Shown here: one piece after another, positions 640 to 12,450 of the stretch | Numbering within the stretch: position 1 is the stretch's first letter | How the letters are laid out: every line of letters starts with the position of its first letter | Assembly (NCBI GenBank): GCA_913041025.1 | Contig: CAJWGQ010000076.1 | Coordinates: 1-12,450, forward strand | Direction of reading: 5' to 3' | Length of the DNA: 12,450 nucleotides | Origin: an uncultured Gammaproteobacteria bacterium | GTDB lineage: Bacteria; Pseudomonadota; Gammaproteobacteria; Pseudomonadales; Azotimanducaceae_A | Translations under genes and position numbers: made by a program | The notes under the pieces: model-generated | Databases searched by the model: none | Told to the model about the DNA's origin: nothing | Seen by the model: only the letters and a program-made list of their open reading frames with translations

Positions 640-1389
640 TTAGATTGTTCTACCTCCATCGATTTCCAAAGCAGTACCTGTCACCAAAGACGATTCGTCA
701 CTACACAGATAGACGGCGGCTCTGCCTAAATCTTCCGGGGTTGAGAATCGGCCAAGCGGGATTGTAGAAAGAAATTTTTCTCTCATTTCGGGCGTATCTT
801 CGCCCATGAAAGTCGACAGCAGAGGAGTTTCTCCAGCGACTGGGTTTATCGCATTTACTCGGATATTGAAAGGCGCCAATTCAATCGCCATGGATTTTGT
901 GGCCGTGATTACCCATCCTTTGCTTGCGTTATACCAGGTCAGATTTGGTCGAGGACTAATTCCTGCTGTGGAGGCGATATTTAAGATGTTGCCCTGGCCT
1001 TTGGCTTTCATTATCGGCACCACCAGATTGCTGGTTAGATAAATGCCTTTCATATTAACTTGAAAAATACGATCAAACTGTTCTTCTGAGAGCTCGTCTA
1101 AAGGCGTAGGTTCATGGCCAATTCCAGCATTATTTACCAGTACGTCTATCTTACCGGACCAATCAATAATTTTATCCACTGCCTGGCTCAGGCTAGATTT
1201 GTCACTGATGTCGACGTGAATGGGGAGACATTGCTCTCCAAGTTCTTTAGCAATCGATTCCGCGGCCTCTTGGTTAATGTCCAGCAGAACGACCCTTGCT
1301 CCCTCTTCGCTAAATTGCTTTGCGATTCCTGCACCAAAACCCGACCCGCCGCCTGTTACGATAGCTACCATATCGCGCATTCGATTCAT
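640..1389 (-). CDS. Short-chain dehydrogenase/reductase (SDR, classical type)
   Basis: A 249-residue classical SDR, an NAD(P)-dependent oxidoreductase acting on an alcohol or ketone in the cytoplasm. The cofactor motif TGGGSGFG is at residues 12-19 and Asp37 at the end of the second strand favours NAD(H) over NADP(H). NNAG is at 86-89, Asn112 in the active-site helix, catalytic Ser140, and YNASK at 153-157 with catalytic Tyr153 and Lys157. The C-terminus ends in the usual DGG segment. Length is normal and all catalytic residues are present. The start codon overlaps the stop of the upstream M20 gene by four bases (ATGA at 1386-1389), so the two are translationally coupled as the third and second genes of an operon. 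The substrate cannot be assigned; annotations such as 3-oxoacyl-ACP reductase or glucose dehydrogenase would be over-specific. Confidence 0.92.
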   Translation of the reverse strand: MNRMRDMVAIVTGGGSGFGAGIAKQFSEEGARVVLLDINQEAAESIAKELGEQCLPIHVDISDKSSLSQAVDKIIDWSGKIDVLVNNAGIGHEPTPLDELSEEQFDRIFQVNMKGIYLTSNLVVPIMKAKGQGNILNIASTAGISPRPNLTWYNASKGWVITATKSMAIELAPFNIRVNAINPVAGETPLLSTFMGEDTPEMREKFLSTIPLGRFSTPEDLGRAAVYLCSDESSLVTGTALEIDGGRTI

Positions 1390-2660
1390 TTTTTCTTACC
1401 GCGCAAGAGGTCGTCTAGGGCTAAGCCCATCACGCAAGCAGAGTCGATCATGTCGGAGATGTTGACGTATTCGTCTGCCTGATGCGCTAGGGTCAGAATT
1501 CCTGGTCCATATGCGATGCAATCTTCGAGTTTACCAATCCGATCGATGTGTTTCTGGTCGTAGGTTCCCGGTGAGACTACCATCTCGGGTGGGGACCCTA
1601 TTACTTCATTGACGGCTTTTTTGACTGCCTGGACCACGGGTGCTTCTTCAGGTGTGAGCGACGGTATGACTTCGAAGAGGTCCCTAAGTTTGAACAGAAA
1701 TCCTTCTCTGTCAGCAGTGAGATCTTCAAGTATTGAGGAAATCTCTCGTTTAACATCTTCCAGCTTCTCTTCGATTAAGAAGCGACGATCAATTATGATT
1801 CGACAAGAATCTGCAACCAGAGGTGAGGGCAGGCCTTCAAATTCTTCGCTTTCCCCCCCATGGATCGAATTAATGTTGAGCGTTGATTCTTTTGCGCCGT
1901 CTGGGACCACTGGCATGTCGGTTCTTTTGCTTTTTAGGACTGGGTACAGTTCTTTTTCGAAACGATCGAGTAAAGCATGCATATGTCTGATCGCACTATC
2001 GCCATCAAAGGGCATGGAGCCATGAGCGATTTTCCCTAATGTTTCGATCTCTGCCCACCAAACTCCTCGGTGGCCTAAACATATTCGGTCTTTGTTAAGA
2101 GGCTCAGGAATGATTACGTGGTCTACTCTTGGTTTGGCGAGGATCCCTTTTTCGGCGAGATAACCAACGCCGCCATACCCTCCAGTCTCCTCGTCTGCGG
2201 TACCAGATAGTTCGATGCTACCCGCAAACTTAGGGTTTAACTCGAGGTACGATTCAACGGCGATGATCGAGGCAGCTAGCCCTCCCTTCATATCGCAGGA
2301 GCCCCTGCCGTAAATTTTGTCGCCGACCACCTTGCCTTCAAAGGGAGGTTGGGTCCAGCCTGAACCGACTGCCACTACGTCAATGTGTGAATTAAAGTGG
2401 ACGCAGGGTCCCTGGCCATTGCTGATATTGGCGACGATGTTCTGGCGTGGGTACTCGTCGTTATCGCCTGGCGTGCCTATTGCACGGATGATCTGAGTCT
2501 TAAAACCCCTTGATTTGAATCGTTTGTTGAGATATTCCACACAATCCGAATAAAACTCTCCTGGAGGATTTACGGTGGGTATCCTGATGAGATCCTGAGT
2601 CAACGAGACTAGATCCTCTTTTTTTTCTTCTATCCGTTGGCGAAATTTGGATTGCTCCAT
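1386..2660 (-). CDS. M20 family metallopeptidase (ArgE/DapE-like deacylase)
   Basis: A 424-residue zinc-dependent amidase or peptidase of the ArgE/DapE/CPG2 group. Metal site residues are visible in order: His92 in NSHIDVV with Asp94, bridging Asp123 in GRGSCDMKGG, Glu157-Glu158 in TADEETGG (general base and ligand), Glu186 in IIPEPLN, and His393 in LAHQADEY near the C-terminus. The dimerisation domain lies between about 200 and 320, including the AHGSMPFDGDSAI segment. Such enzymes remove acyl groups from amino acids or cleave dipeptides in the cytoplasm. The gene starts two bases after the stop of the P1 peptidase gene and overlaps the SDR gene by four bases, so it is the middle gene of a three-gene operon. 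It is not placed with arginine or lysine biosynthesis genes, so a catabolic or salvage role is more likely than ArgE or DapE proper. Confidence 0.92.
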   Translation of the reverse strand: MEQSKFRQRIEEKKEDLVSLTQDLIRIPTVNPPGEFYSDCVEYLNKRFKSRGFKTQIIRAIGTPGDNDEYPRQNIVANISNGQGPCVHFNSHIDVVAVGSGWTQPPFEGKVVGDKIYGRGSCDMKGGLAASIIAVESYLELNPKFAGSIELSGTADEETGGYGGVGYLAEKGILAKPRVDHVIIPEPLNKDRICLGHRGVWWAEIETLGKIAHGSMPFDGDSAIRHMHALLDRFEKELYPVLKSKRTDMPVVPDGAKESTLNINSIHGGESEEFEGLPSPLVADSCRIIIDRRFLIEEKLEDVKREISSILEDLTADREGFLFKLRDLFEVIPSLTPEEAPVVQAVKKAVNEVIGSPPEMVVSPGTYDQKHIDRIGKLEDCIAYGPGILTLAHQADEYVNISDMIDSACVMGLALDDLLRGKKK

Positions 2661-2662
2661 TG

Positions 2663-3616
2663 TTAGGATGTTCCTTTTTCGGCCTGATACGCTGCCACGG
2701 CGATTGCTCTTGTCGTTAGGTTTGCAGCAATAACAGATAGTTCGAGTAATTTGTCCTCACTAAATTCGATCTGACTTGTCGACGCGGTAAATATCAGATC
2801 TCCATCAGCCATCGTATGGACCGGGTACAAAGCGCGAGCAAAGCCATCATGTGCGGTGATGCTGACTCGTTTTGCTTGGGAAGGCGTAAGACAAAGATCG
2901 GTTACGATGATCGCTAATGTCGTATTTGCACCAGCAACAAGTTGTCCGCTTTTTAAACGTCCGACTTTAGCGTCTGCCGGCCAGGGAGTAGGGAAACCAA
3001 GACCGCCAAATTCCTCGTCCTCTTCAAAGGGAGCCGCCCAATAATGTTTTGTATTCCCGATCAGCGGGCTGCCTACAGCATTTAACGCTACCATGGCCAG
3101 TATGTGACCATCCGCAAACCTAGCGCTGGCCATCCCAAACCCTCCTTTAGTATTGGCTGTAGATGCGCCAAATGCCGCGCCTGCTCTGCCGAGAGCTACT
3201 CGATTGCTGGCCTGTGAGGTTGCTTCATATCCGAGCTCTCGGTAGGGAGAGAATCTTCCCCATTCCTTTTTTCCTTCGTTTCGCATATCAAATAAGATTG
3301 CCGCGGGTACGATGGGAATGCTGACAGGATCGATAAAAATGCCTCTACCTTCCTCTTTTAACTTGGCCTGGCACCCGCCTGCAGCATCCAGACCGAACGC
3401 CGACCCTCCAGACAAGACAATTGCGTCGACTTTGGATACCGCATATTCCGGATTAAGTAGCTCCGTTTCGCGAGTGCCAGGCGAGGCTCCCATGATATGC
3501 ACTGCCGCAACAGCAGGTTCATCAAATACGCAAGCCGTGGTTCCTGTGACCACCGCGATGTCTTCAGCGTGTCCTACTTTGAATCCCGGAAAGGGTAGTT
3601 CATAAATCTTCGTCAT
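2663..3616 (-). CDS. P1 (S58, DmpA/NylC-type) peptidase, self-processing N-terminal nucleophile hydrolase
   Basis: A 317-residue member of the P1/S58 family, which includes beta-peptidyl aminopeptidases (BapA, DmpA) and nylon oligomer hydrolase NylC. The N-terminal part carries the family signature VGHAED, TGTTACVFDEPAVAAVHIMGASPGTRET with adjacent LLNPEYAVSKVDAIVLSGG, SAFGLDAAGG, and VPIVPAAILFD. The later segment GANTTLAIIVTD places Asn231-Thr232 where NylC-like members cut themselves to release a new N-terminal Thr or Ser nucleophile, so the mature enzyme is probably an alpha/beta dimer of about 231 and 86 residues. No signal peptide is seen. It is the first gene of the operon with the M20 peptidase and SDR. 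The start ATG at 3614-3616 has only a weak ribosome binding site. The natural substrate is unknown; D-amino-terminal or beta-peptides, or cyclic and linear amides, are plausible from the family. Confidence 0.9.
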   Translation of the reverse strand: MTKIYELPFPGFKVGHAEDIAVVTGTTACVFDEPAVAAVHIMGASPGTRETELLNPEYAVSKVDAIVLSGGSAFGLDAAGGCQAKLKEEGRGIFIDPVSIPIVPAAILFDMRNEGKKEWGRFSPYRELGYEATSQASNRVALGRAGAAFGASTANTKGGFGMASARFADGHILAMVALNAVGSPLIGNTKHYWAAPFEEDEEFGGLGFPTPWPADAKVGRLKSGQLVAGANTTLAIIVTDLCLTPSQAKRVSITAHDGFARALYPVHTMADGDLIFTASTSQIEFSEDKLLELSVIAANLTTRAIAVAAYQAEKGTS

Positions 3617-4957: not shown

Positions 4958-6640
4958 ATGACATATGACGTGTTAATTAAGGGCGGTATAGTTGTTGATG
5001 GATCTGGTGCTGATCGATTTCGAGCCGACGTCGCGATCGATTCAGGCAGAATAGCTGCAATCGGGGACAACCTAGGTACGGCAAAGCGTACGATTGATGC
5101 TGCAGGTAAGCTTGTTACTCCGGGTTTCGTAGATATTCACACCCATCTAGACGCTCAGATTGCATGGGATCCTATTGCCTCATCATCATGTTTTCATGGT
5201 GTAACCTCTGTTGTTCTGGGTAACTGCGGAGTGACGTTCGCACCTTGTAAACCAGAAGACCGGGATTACCTGGCTCAACTAATGGAATCGGTGGAGGATA
5301 TTCCGGCGAATAGTATTCATGCCGGACTGCCCTGGGACTGGGAGACCTATGGCGAATACCTCGATTCGCTTGAGACAATGGACAAAGGGGTTAATGTTGG
5401 CGGTATGGTTGGACACTGCGCTGTTCGCTATCACGCTATGGGAGAGCGATCACTAGATGAAGCGCCCGCGAACGATGATGACCTGAAGAAAATTACCTCT
5501 TTGGTGGATGAGGCGATCCGCAGCGGCGCGTTAGGGTTTTCTACTTCTCGGACCTTTATGCACCGAGTGCCCGATGGCCGTTTTGTGCCTGGAACCCATG
5601 CGGACCCGAATGAAATGCTTGCTATTGGTTCTGTTTTGGGGCGTCATAAAAAAGGAGTATTTGAGGCAGCAGCTCGTCTGGGAGAGCGTGATGCTGAAGA
5701 TTTACCGAACACTCGCGCTGAAATTGCCTGGATGGGCGAAGTATCACGGCAAAATAACCTTAATCTTACCTTTGGCTTGGTCCACAGTTTTCGGCGTCCG
5801 GAGCTGTACAAACGCGTGATCGAGTTTGTCGAAGAAGAAAACGCCAAAGGCGCTTGTTTGAGGCCACAAACTACCTCGCGAGGGGTTGGCGGCTTGTTTG
5901 CCCTGGACCACCGAACACCATTTGATGCTTCTACTAGCTGGAAGATGTTGAAAGATAAATCGTTTTCAGAACGACTAGCCATGCTCGAGGTTGAAAGTGT
6001 CCGAAACAGTCTGTGTGATTTAGACGCTGAGCCACAGCTTAATTTTGATATTTCCTATTTGCTCTTTGATGATGCCGTGGATTATCGACACGATTATGAA
6101 AATTCTCTGACGGCGCACGCGAAAAGAATGAACCTCAGCCCGGTTGAAGCGTTTATTCAGTTAAATCGACAGCACAAAGGAAGGGTCGTGATTTACCATC
6201 CAGGTCTCAATCAGAGTATGGAAGCCATAGAGGAGATGCTCGTCAATCCAACCGTAGCAATGGGGTTAGCTGATTCCGGAGCGCATGTGGGGCAGATCAT
6301 GGACGCGAGCTCTCCTACATGGTTATTGAGCTATTGGGTGAGAGAACGCGGGGTTTTGAGCTTAGAAGAAGCGATCAGAGGTTGGACTTCAGATACAGCA
6401 AATCTCTTTGGAATCAAAGAGCGAGGTATTTTGAAGGAGGGCGCTTACGCCGATTTGAATGTCATTGATCTAGATAATCTAGCTATTGATCTGCCAGAGT
6501 ATAAGCATGATTTTCCTGGCGGAGCTGGCCGGTATGTGCAGACTGGGCGAGGGTATGACTATGTGCTGGTCAATGGGCAAGTGTTCATGGAGTCAGGCGA
6601 ACACTCTGGTGCCTTGTCAGGACAGATGCTGCGAAGCTAG
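4958..6640 (+). CDS. N-acyl-D-amino-acid deacylase-like amidohydrolase
   Basis: A 560-residue amidohydrolase-superfamily protein of the D-aminoacylase group. I prefer ATG at 4958 to GTG at 4955 because AGGAG at 4947-4951 is then six bases away. Numbered from that ATG, the N-terminal beta-sandwich with DVLIKGGIVVDGSG is followed by the metal motif VDIHTHLD (His61, His63), then VVLGNCGVTFAPC with Cys90 at the position of the metal-bridging Cys of D-aminoacylase. GALGFSTSR lies near 190-198 and DSGAH begins with catalytic Asp439. The C-terminus returns to the sandwich with GILKEGAYADLNVIDLD. The canonical His of the D-aminoacylase THMR motif is not obvious; the matching stretch reads GVFEAAA, as in divergent members. 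The enzyme should hydrolyse an amide or ring amide in the cytoplasm, but D-amino acid specificity is not proven. It converges on the MATE gene with a 42-base gap. Confidence 0.88.
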   Translation: MTYDVLIKGGIVVDGSGADRFRADVAIDSGRIAAIGDNLGTAKRTIDAAGKLVTPGFVDIHTHLDAQIAWDPIASSSCFHGVTSVVLGNCGVTFAPCKPEDRDYLAQLMESVEDIPANSIHAGLPWDWETYGEYLDSLETMDKGVNVGGMVGHCAVRYHAMGERSLDEAPANDDDLKKITSLVDEAIRSGALGFSTSRTFMHRVPDGRFVPGTHADPNEMLAIGSVLGRHKKGVFEAAARLGERDAEDLPNTRAEIAWMGEVSRQNNLNLTFGLVHSFRRPELYKRVIEFVEEENAKGACLRPQTTSRGVGGLFALDHRTPFDASTSWKMLKDKSFSERLAMLEVESVRNSLCDLDAEPQLNFDISYLLFDDAVDYRHDYENSLTAHAKRMNLSPVEAFIQLNRQHKGRVVIYHPGLNQSMEAIEEMLVNPTVAMGLADSGAHVGQIMDASSPTWLLSYWVRERGVLSLEEAIRGWTSDTANLFGIKERGILKEGAYADLNVIDLDNLAIDLPEYKHDFPGGAGRYVQTGRGYDYVLVNGQVFMESGEHSGALSGQMLRS

Positions 6641-8162: not shown

Positions 8163-9008
8163 TCAGGCTCTGGGCCTTTCGCTACCTAGGATGGACACCC
8201 GTTCTCCAGAGCGAGAGTCCGGCCAGTAATCCCAAACCGCATGATGCTGGGTACAGCGATTATCCCAAAATGTTAGCGTATTCGGTGTCCAGTTTACTCT
8301 GCACGTTAGGCGAGGCGTGCTTGCAATGAATTGCTTTAGTCCGCTTAAGATGGAGTCGCTTTCCCAGGCTGCAAGTCCCTTGATATGGGAAGTAAAACCA
8401 GAGTTAACATAGAGTACTTTTTTACCTGTTTCTGGATGAGTTGTGATGATTGGATGTTCATTTTTTGGATATTCGTGGCCATCGGGTGCGGCCACTTTAT
8501 AGTTTCTTAGGTAGGGCAAAGCCCCATCATGAACCGCAATCAGGCCTGATAGTAATTCTTTCATTTTTTCACTAAGTAGCTCATAGGCGAGATACATATC
8601 CGCATAAAGAGTGTCTCCGCCTCCTGATTCGGGTGTTTGCTTGATATAAAGCATAGAGCCTAAAGGTGGGATCTCGTCGCAGGTGACGTCGGTGTGCCAG
8701 CCATTACCAGCAGTATAAGCTGAATCTTTGGTGGTTTTGACGGTCAGGATTTCTGGGTCGCCTTGATAATGATGTTGCATCGGGTGGACATGTAACGATC
8801 CAAATTTCCTTGCAAAAGCTTTGTGTTGATCTCTGCTGATTTGCTGATCCCTGAACACGATCACCTTCCAATCTAACCAAGCTTGGTAGATCTCGCTGAA
8901 TTGTTCATTTGAAAGATCTTTGGAGAGGTCCACACCATCAATTTCAGCGCCAATGTGTGGCGTCAGATTATCGACTCCAATAGTTTGAAAGCCCGATACT
9001 GCGACCAT
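8163..9008 (-). CDS. TauD/TfdA family 2-oxoglutarate/Fe(II)-dependent dioxygenase
   Basis: A 281-residue non-haem iron dioxygenase that uses O2 and 2-oxoglutarate to hydroxylate a substrate, commonly releasing sulfite, a phenol or an aldehyde. The iron triad is complete: His105 and Asp107 in NGWHTDVTC and His255 in the CTQHHAVWDY segment, and Arg270 in SGERVSILG is placed to bind the 2-oxoglutarate carboxylate. The N-terminus with LTPHIGAEIDGVDLS and the VIVFRDQQIS strand is typical. Length matches TauD (about 283). The start has a good ribosome binding site (GAGGAGAGGGAA just before the ATG on the minus strand) and lies 21 bases after the stop of the acyl-CoA dehydrogenase gene, so the two form an operon. 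No sulfonate transporter is seen nearby, so a taurine role is unsupported. Confidence 0.94.
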   Translation of the reverse strand: MVAVSGFQTIGVDNLTPHIGAEIDGVDLSKDLSNEQFSEIYQAWLDWKVIVFRDQQISRDQHKAFARKFGSLHVHPMQHHYQGDPEILTVKTTKDSAYTAGNGWHTDVTCDEIPPLGSMLYIKQTPESGGGDTLYADMYLAYELLSEKMKELLSGLIAVHDGALPYLRNYKVAAPDGHEYPKNEHPIITTHPETGKKVLYVNSGFTSHIKGLAAWESDSILSGLKQFIASTPRLTCRVNWTPNTLTFWDNRCTQHHAVWDYWPDSRSGERVSILGSERPRA

Positions 9009-9029: not shown

Positions 9030-10211
9030 TTAGTCGGGTAATCCTAGTACTCGCTTTGCGATAATATTTGCCTGGATTTCATTACTGCCACCATAGATAG
9101 TGGTTGTTCTGGTATGCAACCATTCTTCCGTTGCGACGAGATCCGATTTATCGAACCCGTTTGTGTCATGTGCTCCTAACCCCTTGAATCCGAGTAATTC
9201 TCGACGCAGATTTGCTCCATCTTGCTGGAGAGCTGCACCATAGAGTTTGAAGATTGAGGTAGCAGCGCCTGGTATTCCCGATTTGTTTTCCTCGTTAGCT
9301 CGCTGGGCGGTCAACTGAAACGCACTTCGGTTCATATTCATAACGGTGACTTCTTTTCTGACAGCGGTATCTGCTATCTCATTGCCAGATTCACCAACCG
9401 ATTCTTTGGCGAGCTTTGCTAGACCCGAGCCAGGTTGCGCTCGTCGGGCGCCGCCTGATAAACCTCCGATACCTGAGCGCTCGAATTGCAGTAGTCGCTT
9501 TCCTACGGTCCAGCCCTGATCGAGCTTGCCGATGAGGTCATCTTTCGCGGCCGTTGCATTGTCTAGAAACGTTTCACAAAAAGGAGATGAGCCAGATATA
9601 AGTCGAATAGGCTTAACGGTCACTCCTGGTTGGTCCATAGTCAGTAGTACAAAGCTGATGCCGTCATGTTTAGGGGCATCCGGATTCGTCCGTACTAAGG
9701 CGAACATCCAGTCAGCGGTTGCTGCACCCGAGGTCCAGATTTTTTGTCCGTTGATTTCCCAATGATCTCCCTTATCTGAAGCTCTGGTTTGAAGAGAGGC
9801 AAGATCAGAGCCGGCATTCGGTTCAGAATAACCCTGGCACCACTGTACTTCACCTCTGATAATTTTAGGTAGATGTCGCTCTTTTTGCTCATCGGTGCCA
9901 AATTCAAGGAGGGTCGGTCCTATCATCGACATACCCATTCCTGTCAAAGGGGTTCGTGCTCTGACTTCTGCCATTTCTTCGAAAAGAATTTTTGCTTGCT
10001 GTGGAGTTAAGCCGCCGCCGCCATATTCGGTTGGCCAGGTCGGTGCTGTGAAGCCTCGCTCAACGCAGCGCTCCAGCCAGAGCTTGACGTCAGGTTCCAG
10101 CGTTATCTTAGAACTTCCAACTGCAATTTGTCCGGGCCCTTTAGCACCTTCTGGACAGTTTTCATTCAACCAGTTGGCTACTTCTTCTCTAAATTCTGCT
10201 AATTCCGACAC
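9030..10211 (-). CDS. Acyl-CoA dehydrogenase
   Basis: A 393-residue FAD-dependent acyl-CoA dehydrogenase, which introduces an alpha-beta double bond into an acyl-CoA. The N-terminal helical domain contains WPTEYGGGGLTP. CQGYSEPNAGSDLASLQTRA at 125-144 binds flavin and is followed by GQKIWTSGA. The C-terminal helical domain ends with TTTIYGGSNEIQANIIAKRVLGLP. The position occupied by catalytic Glu in short- and medium-chain enzymes (YEGT) is Gly here, as in the actinobacterial FadE17/FadE26 type. Glu244 in LLQFERSG lies where isovaleryl- and long-chain enzymes carry the base. The start is GTG at 10209-10211 with AGGA upstream; the nearby ATG is out of frame and soon meets a stop. It is first in an operon with the TauD-like gene and divergent from the thioredoxin-like gene. 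Branched or steroid-side-chain acyl-CoAs are possible substrates by family resemblance only. Confidence 0.93.
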   Translation of the reverse strand: MSELAEFREEVANWLNENCPEGAKGPGQIAVGSSKITLEPDVKLWLERCVERGFTAPTWPTEYGGGGLTPQQAKILFEEMAEVRARTPLTGMGMSMIGPTLLEFGTDEQKERHLPKIIRGEVQWCQGYSEPNAGSDLASLQTRASDKGDHWEINGQKIWTSGAATADWMFALVRTNPDAPKHDGISFVLLTMDQPGVTVKPIRLISGSSPFCETFLDNATAAKDDLIGKLDQGWTVGKRLLQFERSGIGGLSGGARRAQPGSGLAKLAKESVGESGNEIADTAVRKEVTVMNMNRSAFQLTAQRANEENKSGIPGAATSIFKLYGAALQQDGANLRRELLGFKGLGAHDTNGFDKSDLVATEEWLHTRTTTIYGGSNEIQANIIAKRVLGLPD

Positions 10212-10337: not shown

Positions 10338-11915
10338 ATGAATACAGTGCCAGCTTTTTCTCTTAAGGATGTTTCCGGGAAAGAACGCCAGTTTGTTGCA
10401 CAGAAACAGTCGCTTGTTTGTTTTATTAAGGAAGACTGCCCTACCTGTCGTGAAGTAATGCCTTTATTGAGTGAGATAGAAAAGCTTTTAAATGATCGCC
10501 TAGAGATCCACATTATTGGCCAGACTAAGGAAGGTAATGTGTTACTGGAAGAAGAATTTTCCCCCTCTTTCTCAATCGTGGATGATTCAGATTTGAAAGT
10601 GTCTTTTGAAACCGATATTGAAACGGTTCCTACTATGATTTGGTCAGATGGATCAAACAAACAGAAGGAGGTAGTAGGCTTTGATCGGAACGAGTGGAAG
10701 AGCTTGGTCGATGAAATAGCTGACGCGAATTCCGTTTCATCAGAGGTGATTAATTGGGCTTCGCTTCCGAAGTGGCGTCCAGGTTGCGGTTCATTATCGG
10801 TCGACCCATTTCATGCTGAGCGACTTAAAGCGGAATCGGAAAACAGTCCAATTCGTGCCAGGAGAATTGAGATTGGCATTCAAGACGACGAATTTGAGTT
10901 TATGTTTGATCAAGGATTTTCTGATGGTCTCCCGGTAATTCCGCCAACGGCGGAAAGGGTGGTCCGTATGCTAGAGGGCACTTCGAGAGACCCGCAGGAA
11001 GTCGTTGCTGTTATGCCTCCTAATATGGGAGAGGTGACAGTGGAAAAAGTCGCCATCAATTGTGTTCTAGCAGGGTGTAAGCCAGAGTATCTGCCCGTGG
11101 TGATAGCTGCCGTCGAAGCCATTGCCACAGATGATTACAATATTCACGGAGTTATGGCGACGACGATGGGTGCGAGTCCCGTAATCGTTGTGAATGGGCC
11201 TATACGAAAGAAAATTGGTATGAACATGGGTATTGGAGCTCTGGGTCAAGGAAATAGAGCCAATGCGACCATAGGCAGAGCAGTTCGTTTGGTAGTGCGA
11301 AATGTTGGAGGTGCGATTCCGGGCGGTACGGAGCGGTCGACCTTTGGGAATCCGATGAAATTTACGATGTGCTTTGCTGAGTGGGAGGAAAGATCTAATT
11401 GGGATCCTCTTCATGTAGAGCGTGGATTCCGTCAGCAGGACTCCGTGGTGACTGTATTCACAATGTGTAGTGGGCCCGTATTAACGATTGATGAGAGTTC
11501 TTTAACAGGCGATCCACTGGCGGGTACGATCGCTCAGTGTGTTCAGACTGTTCTTGCCCCGAAGGCTTATGGGGTGACTGACTGTTTATTGGTCGTGTCG
11601 CCTGAGCACGTAGACACGTTTTCAAGGGACGATTATCAGAAAACCGATATTCGAAATCGAATTCAGTCAATTACCCAAAAAACTTATCGAGAGATGATAG
11701 TCGACGACATTTCAGGAATGGGTTTAAAACCAGAGATAGCGGCGCAAATGGATGAAGCGGCCTTGAACAAAACTGTCAAAAAGTTTAATTCAGATTCAGA
11801 TATTCATATTGTGGTTGCAGGCAGTGAGGCGGGCAAGTTCAGTGCTTGTTTCCACGGTTGGCTCACCGGGCCGAAAGGGTCAATTTCGGTGTCTCGAAAA
11901 ATTGACGAGCGTTAA
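10338..11915 (+). CDS. Thioredoxin-like domain fused to a large conserved domain of unknown function; partner of the UGSC protein
   Basis: A 525-residue two-part protein. Residues 1-130 look like a thioredoxin/TlpA fold: PAFSLKDVSGKE near the N-terminus, the redox motif CPTC at 34-37, and a cis-proline segment ETVPTMIW with Pro98. There is no signal peptide, so it should act in the cytoplasm. Residues about 150-525 form a domain I cannot assign to an enzyme class, with SDGLPVIPPT at 195-204, a MPPNMGEVTVEKVAINCVLAGC stretch at 226-247 rendered here only in part by its Cys242 and Cys247, Gly-rich segments around 296-330, MCSGP at 376-380, and a closing VVAGSEAGKFSACFHGW at 492-508 with Cys504. 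My recollection is that this domain is commonly found beside UGSC-family genes. The selenoprotein gene follows 54 bases later on the same strand. The likely role is electron transfer to, or joint catalysis with, that protein; this is inferred. Confidence 0.8.
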   Translation: MNTVPAFSLKDVSGKERQFVAQKQSLVCFIKEDCPTCREVMPLLSEIEKLLNDRLEIHIIGQTKEGNVLLEEEFSPSFSIVDDSDLKVSFETDIETVPTMIWSDGSNKQKEVVGFDRNEWKSLVDEIADANSVSSEVINWASLPKWRPGCGSLSVDPFHAERLKAESENSPIRARRIEIGIQDDEFEFMFDQGFSDGLPVIPPTAERVVRMLEGTSRDPQEVVAVMPPNMGEVTVEKVAINCVLAGCKPEYLPVVIAAVEAIATDDYNIHGVMATTMGASPVIVVNGPIRKKIGMNMGIGALGQGNRANATIGRAVRLVVRNVGGAIPGGTERSTFGNPMKFTMCFAEWEERSNWDPLHVERGFRQQDSVVTVFTMCSGPVLTIDESSLTGDPLAGTIAQCVQTVLAPKAYGVTDCLLVVSPEHVDTFSRDDYQKTDIRNRIQSITQKTYREMIVDDISGMGLKPEIAAQMDEAALNKTVKKFNSDSDIHIVVAGSEAGKFSACFHGWLTGPKGSISVSRKIDER

Positions 11916-11969
11916 TACAAGCAATTGATTATTATCAAGGCTATTGGATAAGTGAATAAGGAGAGACTT

Positions 11970-12450
11970 ATGTCTTTGACAATTTTGGATCCGACGAATG
12001 AGACGGTGCCAGTAGAAAGGCAAGTAACGCCGAGACCGGAAACCGTGAAGGGCAAGATTGCTTTTTTGGATATCTCGAAAAGCAGAGGAAACGTACTTCT
12101 GGATCGATTACAGGAAGCGTTTGAACAGCGCTTACCTCAAATTGAAATTACGCGTTATATAAAACCAACTTTTTCAAAGCCTGCGCCCGAAGACTTACGC
12201 TCGGACATTATCGAAAACAATGATTTTGTTGTTGAGGCGTTAGCCGACTGAGGATCCTGTACCACGTGCAGTTTGCATGACACGGTATGGTTTGAGATCC
12301 AGGGAGTACCTGCAGTTGCGATAGCATCCACTGAGTTTCAGGATGCGGCGGAAACTCAAGCAAAAGCTTTAGGCATGAAGGATGCTCGTAGGGTTTTTGT
12401 TGATCACCCGATACAGGATGCGACAGATCAGCAAATGAGTGAAAAGGCAG
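11970..12450 (+). CDS. UGSC-family selenoprotein with in-frame UGA (Sec94), runs off the window
   Basis: The start ATG at 11970 has AAGGAG at 11958-11963, six bases away, and is preferred to the in-frame GTG at 11952 that would put this site inside the gene. The first 93 codons (LDPTN, a PRPETVKGKIAFLDISKSRG segment, DFVVEALAD) reach TGA at 12249. The same frame then stays open for all 66 complete codons to the window edge with sensible protein: GSCTTCSLHD, then WFEIQGVPAVAIASTEF and a QAKALGMKDARRVFVDHP stretch. Read through, residue 94 is selenocysteine in U-G-S-C (Sec94, Cys97), followed by Cys100. This fits the UGSC (seleno)protein family; function unknown to me. An UxxC motif usually means thiol/selenol redox chemistry. 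It follows the thioredoxin-like gene, probably in one operon. The C-terminus is outside the window. Alternatives are a nonsense mutation or sequencing error from a Cys codon, made less likely by the hairpin after the UGA. Confidence 0.85.
12249..12251 (+). other. Recoded UGA codon (selenocysteine 94)
   Basis: This TGA sits exactly at the first position of the U-G-S-C motif for which the family is named, where other members carry Sec or Cys. Coding continues in the same frame on both sides without a shift. A conventional gene call would end the protein here at 93 residues and lose the active-site half. Confidence 0.82.
12259..12288 (+). promoter_or_regulatory. Candidate bacterial SECIS hairpin for UGA recoding
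   Basis: Bases 12265-12270 (CGUGCA) pair with 12274-12279 (UGCAUG), closing a three-base loop GUU at 12271-12273, with one G-U pair. Below an internal loop (A12264 against 12280-12283), 12259-12263 (GUACC) pairs with 12284-12288 (GGUAU). The loop G lies 20 bases after the UGA, inside the range known for bacterial SECIS elements, which lie within the coding region and need a small apical loop with an early G. The upper part UGCA-GUU-UGCA closely resembles the E. coli fdhF element UGCA-GGUC-UGCA, bound by SelB. Drawn by eye; no folding energy was computed. Confidence 0.72.

Follow-up and report, generated by a model that had tools for sequence, protein, structure and literature searches.

What is made from a gene whose reading frame meets a TGA after 93 codons and then stays open to the edge of the available sequence? 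The gene lies at the end of a 12,450-nucleotide stretch of DNA (the window, contig CAJWGQ010000076.1) from an uncultured gammaproteobacterium, and its product belongs to the UGSC family of selenoproteins. The answer proposed here is that the TGA encodes selenocysteine (Sec), and that the full-length, Sec-bearing UGSC protein is one half of a two-component enzyme, a thioredoxin-driven, PrdB-like Sec reductase of organic acids. The probability of this reading as a whole is put at roughly 0.6.

The selenoprotein itself is a member of a known family and is not new; the new part is the reading of the locus as a two-gene enzyme. According to the available excerpts of the literature, the UGSC family has been known since 2008, and it accounts for 8.2% of the selenoprotein genes in one later study. 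A whole-word search for UGSC in a single library returned passages on UGSC selenoproteins that mention no function, partner gene, or relation to PrdB, apart from a fusion named “UGSC/Unknown_1” in 2008.

The features at the end of the window are as follows.

11970..12450, + strand: selenoprotein gene of the UGSC family, cut off by the window edge after 160 residues (about 172 in relatives)
12249..12251, + strand: in-frame UGA predicted to encode Sec, residue 94, in the motif UGSC; rarer homologues have cysteine (Cys) here
11958..11963, + strand: Shine-Dalgarno-like AAGGAG before ATG 11970, read from the sequence

The initial annotation described a frame running from ATG 11970 to TGA 12249 and then through 66 open codons to the edge. 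Translation agrees with this exactly (93 residues, with the TGA at 12249-12251), and the reported junction U-G-S-C-T-T-C is present as ALAD-U-GSCTTC. Taken alone, the bare open frame is weak evidence. By plain arithmetic, (61/64)^66, a run of 66 open codons past a stop has a chance of about 4%, which is not rare in itself.

The case for readthrough is decisive because homology crosses the TGA and because the same TGA recurs in related genomes. The read-through protein exceeds the cut-offs of two models of the family, and both matches span the TGA. PF24696 covers residues 4-160 with 151 bits (cut-off 25), and NF041046 covers residues 29-160 with 148.3 bits (cut-off 125), which bears out the proposed membership in the UGSC family. 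Residues G95, S96, and C97 of the [U/C]GSC motif are invariant in the family alignment of 63 members. The genomic loci came from GTDB genomes, where 569 relatives were confirmed; in the best 80 of these, the codon at the Sec site is always TGA. From this TGA, itself counted, the frame continues for 79-87 codons to a normal stop in every one of them. Judged by the length of these relatives, the true stop of the window gene should lie 12-20 codons past the edge, most likely 13-14.

Gene callers nevertheless end at the TGA, which is what would be expected if it were a true stop producing a 93-residue protein, or if the locus were a pseudogene or held a sequencing error. The initial annotation had predicted such truncation, and among the homologues listed as database matches 111 of 120 are indeed 91-94 amino acids long; one of the 111 (P0117) is a C-terminal piece instead. 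This explanation is barely credible, given the TGA followed by an open frame in every locus, the conservation of the protein on both sides of the TGA in the alignment of relatives, and the codon choice described below. Four database proteins (P0002, P0003, P0008, and P0117) carry tryptophan, glycine, or arginine at the Sec position; the tryptophan and glycine could reflect genetic codes, applied in gene calling, in which TGA stands for one of these residues.

Wider samples give a similar picture. Among 14 genomes of the 80-locus set, a single internal TGA is present in every one of the 31 UGSC copies found. When 289 genomes were drawn evenly from the class to which a Phenylobacterium metagenome-assembled genome (MAG) belongs, 28 had UGSC genes, and 70 of their 71 copies have TGA. 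A gammaproteobacterium supplied the class for a draw of 369 genomes; UGSC is present in 6 of these, with TGA in 16 of the 17 copies. Both counts include the centre genome of the draw, which was picked because it has a UGSC gene. Nine UGSC copies, each with TGA, occur in a single genome of the gammaproteobacterial draw; their motifs include USTC, USSC, USLC, and UGSC.

The two copies without TGA in these draws (L129 and L148) have Cys, as does the database protein P0030. Plasmids supply most of the other examples: 14 plasmid records matched, 11 were fetched, and of these 10 have Cys at the Sec site and one has TGA. Cys-containing homologues, named in the initial annotation as a check, are thus found at the UGA position. 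A more distant Sec-type homologue is also seen in locus L120 (about 5572-5884, - strand), where U-C-S-A-A-S-C replaces UGSC and no partner domain, of the kind introduced below, occurs within 1.5 kb.

A bacterial selenoprotein gene should have the hairpin of a selenocysteine insertion sequence (SECIS) directly after the UGA. Such a hairpin is present.

12265..12279, + strand: SECIS-type apical hairpin CGTGCA-GTT-TGCATG, with the loop G-U at positions 23-24 (numbering from the U of UGA)

The evidence for this element is codon choice together with one covarying pair, and not the fold of the window sequence after the UGA, which by itself is not unusual (z -0.75). The sixth codon after Sec, for Cys, is TGC and the seventh, for serine, is AGT, each in 80 of 80 distinct proteins; AGT makes up 17% of the serine codons in these UGSC genes. 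Codon constraint is higher in the 14 codons after Sec than in the rest of the gene (12 versus 45 columns, Mann-Whitney p 0.0007, a value that serves as a guide given that the sequences are related). Across relatives the hairpin reads CGTGCA-GTN-TGCAYG, with six of six pairs formed in all 33 sequences counted. One pair varies between GC, GU, and AU, and the same covariation was reached in 24 of 500 shuffles. Among paralogues the loop GU is kept in 8 of 13, being lost in the five that have UGSCT[TS]GT.

The machinery for Sec is also present in relatives. In the 14 genomes, selA, selB, and selD each exceed the curated cut-off in 13, and all four components, tRNA-Sec included, are found in 10. The tRNA-Sec exceeds its cut-off in 12, although this cut-off is not sharp, as 5 of 14 control genomes also pass it; 11 of the 12 score at least 54 bits and one is marginal at 47.1 bits. 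The gaps are tRNA-Sec in two genomes (G001 and G004), selD in one (G013), and selA with selB in one (G014). Most of these genomes are MAGs, so the gaps may be assembly gaps.

In some relatives the machinery lies beside the gene itself. In 9 of the 80 loci, all alphaproteobacteria by their record titles, ARAGORN detects a tRNA-Sec gene within the locus itself, and in 8 of the 9 its distance from the partner gene is about 150 bases or less. One genome has UGSC, partner, tRNA-Sec, selB, and selA on one contig within a span of about 6 kb. Independent support comes from bacteria in which tRNA-Sec reads UAG and which have selenoproteins with the UGSC motif, as described in the part of PMC5330540 that was available.

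On this comparative evidence, insertion of Sec at UGA 12249 is well supported and can be regarded as nearly certain. The claim of the initial annotation that the gene encodes a functional selenoprotein is upheld by the conserved TGA, the Cys homologues, the SECIS codon choice, and the sel genes of relatives, with the word “functional” standing as a strong inference. The partner gene and the relation to PrdB, to which the argument now turns, are additions beyond that claim.

The first addition concerns the gene immediately upstream.

10338..11915, + strand: partner gene, 525 amino acids, 54 bases upstream of the UGSC gene; an open reading frame with a match in 74 of 80 loci
10338..10736, + strand: ResA/TlpA-like thioredoxin domain of the partner, with CPTC at residues 34-37 (10437-10448)
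10875..11912, + strand: C-terminal domain of the partner (DGLP...AGC...PEH), about 345 residues; no described family found, and fused to UGSC elsewhere

The N-terminus of the partner has a thioredoxin fold whose CxxC is this CPTC. Comparison of the C-terminal domain by sequence with Pfam, NCBIfam, and the PDB gave nothing of note. The family that this domain forms has no model in Pfam or NCBIfam and comprises at least 7,943 proteins in the database searched.

The two genes keep close company. Where the partner is matched in the 80 loci, it is nearly always just upstream of UGSC. Of the six loci lacking a match, two start at a contig edge, and L052 comes from a genome with a copy on another contig. 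In the 14 genomes, 27 of 31 UGSC copies adjoin the partner domain, the other four being in G005, G008, G010, and G011. Over 145 loci, 134 of 144 UGSC domains have the partner domain fused to them or on the same strand within 1.5 kb; this set includes a few overlapping loci, and the partner or a long frame was the reason for fetching some. Both domains occur in one read-through segment in 8 of 15 loci fetched, and the four that were printed have no other stop between them. The partner also accompanies UGSC in all 11 plasmid loci fetched, which come from proteobacteria, actinobacteria, and haloarchaea. Taken together, these data make it very probable that UGSC and its upstream gene are a functional pair.

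A variant of the arrangement is seen on two haloarchaeal plasmids (L169 and L170), where two partner-domain genes flank one Cys-type UGSC gene; two unlike partner subunits may therefore share one UGSC subunit.

The second addition concerns the fold of the UGSC protein. The 2008 paper, in the portion available, supposed a thioredoxin-like fold, and the literature suggested a thiol/selenol oxidoreductase of general redox defence. The thioredoxin domain carried by the neighbouring gene might be taken to favour this view. An AlphaFold2 model, made with a close relative (81% identical) as query, has a predicted local distance difference test (pLDDT) score of 92.5 and strands that alternate with helices; Sec94 falls after strand 3 and before helix 3. 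The order of strands and helices points to a Rossmann-like predicted fold. Three UGSC profiles score only 12.4-15.5 against the thioredoxin domain of the partner (hhalign). Thioredoxin is also absent among the fold-list matches given for UGSC, although such lists cannot exclude a family. An enzyme specific for its substrate would account better than general redox defence for the catabolic neighbours and for a copy number that reaches nine per genome. A thioredoxin-fold oxidoreductase is accordingly thought quite unlikely.

A more promising relation is to the Sec subunits PrdB and GrdB. The first comparisons used PrdB-like selenoproteins of the same genomes. In a first decoy test with 30 decoys, a profile of 93 UGSC sequences scored 30.1 against 22.9 for the best decoy, and one of 80 sequences scored 26.1 against 23.7; this test is only suggestive. 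The convincing profiles came after 34 divergent UGSC domains were added, which means more diverse data, yet also a second attempt. These diverse profiles (67, 34, and 20 sequences) match the PrdB-like proteins with E-values, each from a single pairwise hhalign comparison as are those below, of 7.6e-6, 2.4e-6, and 2.4e-7 and probabilities of 84-93%. As controls, 30 families of neighbouring genes scored at most 22.0 against the diverse profiles, and 40 column shuffles at most 18.4. When the UxxC columns were masked, E-values of 2.3e-4, 9.1e-5, and 1.8e-5 were still obtained, and the register was unchanged in the three alignments printed.

The relation extends to PrdB itself. Five PrdB proteins were used, from Acetoanaerobium, Peptoclostridium, Terrisporobacter, Enterococcus, and Ligilactobacillus, four of them annotated as prdB and that of Acetoanaerobium assigned by similarity. 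Against these, the three diverse profiles gave E-values of 1.1e-6, 3.1e-7, and 1.9e-9 (probabilities 91-96%, scores 46.8-64.7, compared with at most 17.8 for the column shuffles), and Sec is aligned on Sec in both alignments printed. With a joint profile of the five PrdB and 14 PrdB-like proteins, and UxxC masked on both sides, the values were 5.9e-5, 4.9e-5, and 3e-6.

Several observations count against a PrdB-like, thioredoxin-driven pair. The first profile match, between the narrow UGSC family and the PrdB-like selenoproteins, had an E-value of only 0.0028 and a probability of 11%, and in the first decoy test a profile of 13 UGSC paralogues scored 21.8, below two decoys (26.5 and 25.9). Only the more diverse UGSC profiles are convincing, over about 50-70 aligned columns. 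PF07355 matches neither the UGSC protein P0001 nor the 63 members of the family alignment, and TIGR04483 does not match P0001. By profile, the partner domain shows no similarity to three PrdA proteins (E 0.78 and 0.29). A sequence search found no structure of GrdB or PrdB for comparison of the folds. Two genomes (G010 and G011) have UGSC copies without an adjacent partner, despite good coverage there, and most partners of about 350 residues lack the thioredoxin domain. Of the 145 loci searched, only 17 have a trxB-like gene no more than 6 kb from UGSC, and 13 of these are at 28-43% identity, so that some may be other flavoproteins.

Two further results concern the same families. The partner has no match to PF09338 (PrdA/GrdE), and a profile search of the genomes with PF09338 found no match in any genome or in any control, so it is uninformative. 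Because the family models do not match, UGSC is classed as a relative of PrdB and GrdB and not as a member of their family.

The shortness of the alignments and the lack of kinship between the partner and PrdA leave room for a more limited likeness. The resemblance might be confined to a unit of strand, UxxC, helix, and strand, through convergence or deep kinship of the fold, and the pair might then carry out other selenol chemistry, such as dehalogenation, desulphurisation, or demethylation. This is a minority possibility, set against a signal that survives masking of the motif and keeps its register. Reductive chemistry of the PrdB type by the pair is held to be slightly better than an even prospect.

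Under the PrdB-like reading, the enzyme would work in the following way. The full-length UGSC selenoprotein would be made by Sec insertion at UGA 12249 and would form a Rossmann-like Sec half, homologous to the Sec domain of component B of D-proline and glycine reductases, with Sec directly after its third strand. The other half would be the C-terminal domain of the upstream protein, probably building the substrate pocket. Sec would attack a bond in a small organic (carboxylic) acid or cleave it reductively, after which Sec94 would be left as a selenide-sulphide with Cys97 of the UxxC motif. Resetting would fall to the fused thioredoxin domain of the partner or, in some other organisms, to the products of a neighbouring trxA/trxB.

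This last step is suggested by gene fusion and gene order. In Arthrobacter the order is trxB-trxA-partner-UGSC, and in Roseovarius it is partner-UGSC-trxB. D-proline reductase itself does not use thioredoxin, according to the excerpt available of PMC10298544. The presence of several paralogous UGSC copies per genome would imply several substrates.

Sec combined with thioredoxin is a usual recipe for a peroxidase. A pair that removes a specific peroxide, with thioredoxin as the reductant, would follow it, and the title of one reference speaks of peroxidase activity of GrdB itself. A simple peroxidase, however, needs no dedicated partner domain of about 345 residues, no fusion of it to UGSC, and no large number of copies, and the neighbouring genes include transporters, CoA-transferases, and dehydrogenases. 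A selenol peroxidase is therefore considered unlikely.

Several kinds of gene recur near UGSC: organic-acid transporters (tripartite ATP-independent periplasmic, or TRAP, and tripartite tricarboxylate), coenzyme A (CoA)-transferases, dehydrogenases, and genes of the major facilitator superfamily (MFS). These surroundings suggest catabolism, with no single substrate.

The window holds further genes on the opposite strand, identified by family matches.

9030-10211, - strand: acyl-CoA dehydrogenase gene, divergent from the pair
8163-9008, - strand: TauD-type dioxygenase gene
640-3616, - strand: short-chain dehydrogenase/reductase (SDR), M20 peptidase, and S58 peptidase genes in a row

Gene clusters resembling, by eye, the acyl-CoA dehydrogenase and TauD are found near UGSC in 31 of 80 and 24 of 80 loci, respectively. 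The neighbouring genes (acyl-CoA dehydrogenase, MFS, TauD, and SDR, in clusters named by eye) were considered as a clue to the substrate and rejected as too varied. The row at 640-3616 is possibly a catabolic operon.

Returning to the PrdB-like reading, the partner, the relation to known reductases, and the likely electron donor together turn an “unknown redox protein” into a testable two-protein enzyme. A broader proposal can be put forward tentatively, at a little under even odds: that UGSC and its partner are a new and widespread class of selenoenzyme, a counterpart of the anaerobic Stickland reductases that tolerates oxygen and cleaves C-X bonds of organic acids with electrons from thioredoxin, with several substrate-specific versions to a genome, across proteobacteria, Chloroflexi, actinobacteria, and haloarchaea, and Cys in place of Sec where selenium is not used. 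Within this proposal, the oxygen tolerance and the C-X bond cleaved are guesses.

How does such a pair compare with known systems? The N-terminal domain of the partner resembles thioredoxins of the ResA/TlpA type and has CPTC. Unlike them, it is fused to a new domain, and it starts near the start codon with no export signal obvious by eye. The fusion reported in 2008 as “UGSC/Unknown_1” (PMC2398784, as far as the available text describes it) is similar in that a conserved domain is joined to the UGSC protein.

The PrdB-like U-P-x-C selenoproteins (L081-L100) are a family separate from UGSC, with direct matches to PF07355, although none of the four that were scanned reaches the PrdB cut-off. 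Such a match is found in 12 of the 14 genomes, with several per genome, and 16 of the 20 loci fetched carry TGA at the site. They are probably the “proline reductase” of the Global Ocean Sampling (GOS) papers, a link made here by inference.

PrdB and GrdB differ from UGSC in several respects. PrdB has 242 amino acids in the available part of PMC3091704, compared with about 172 for UGSC, and the partner of UGSC is not PrdA-like. By record titles, UGSC is spread over proteobacteria, Chloroflexi, actinobacteria, and haloarchaea, which also sets it apart. The likeness lies in the core and in the plan. PrdB or component B (PF07355, TIGR04483) shares with UGSC a succession of strand, U-G-[ST]-C, helix, E-x-x-G-[IV]-P, and strand, the PrdB sequences fetched reading TAG-U-GTC, and in both systems a separate subunit and a thiol reductant would serve the Sec protein.
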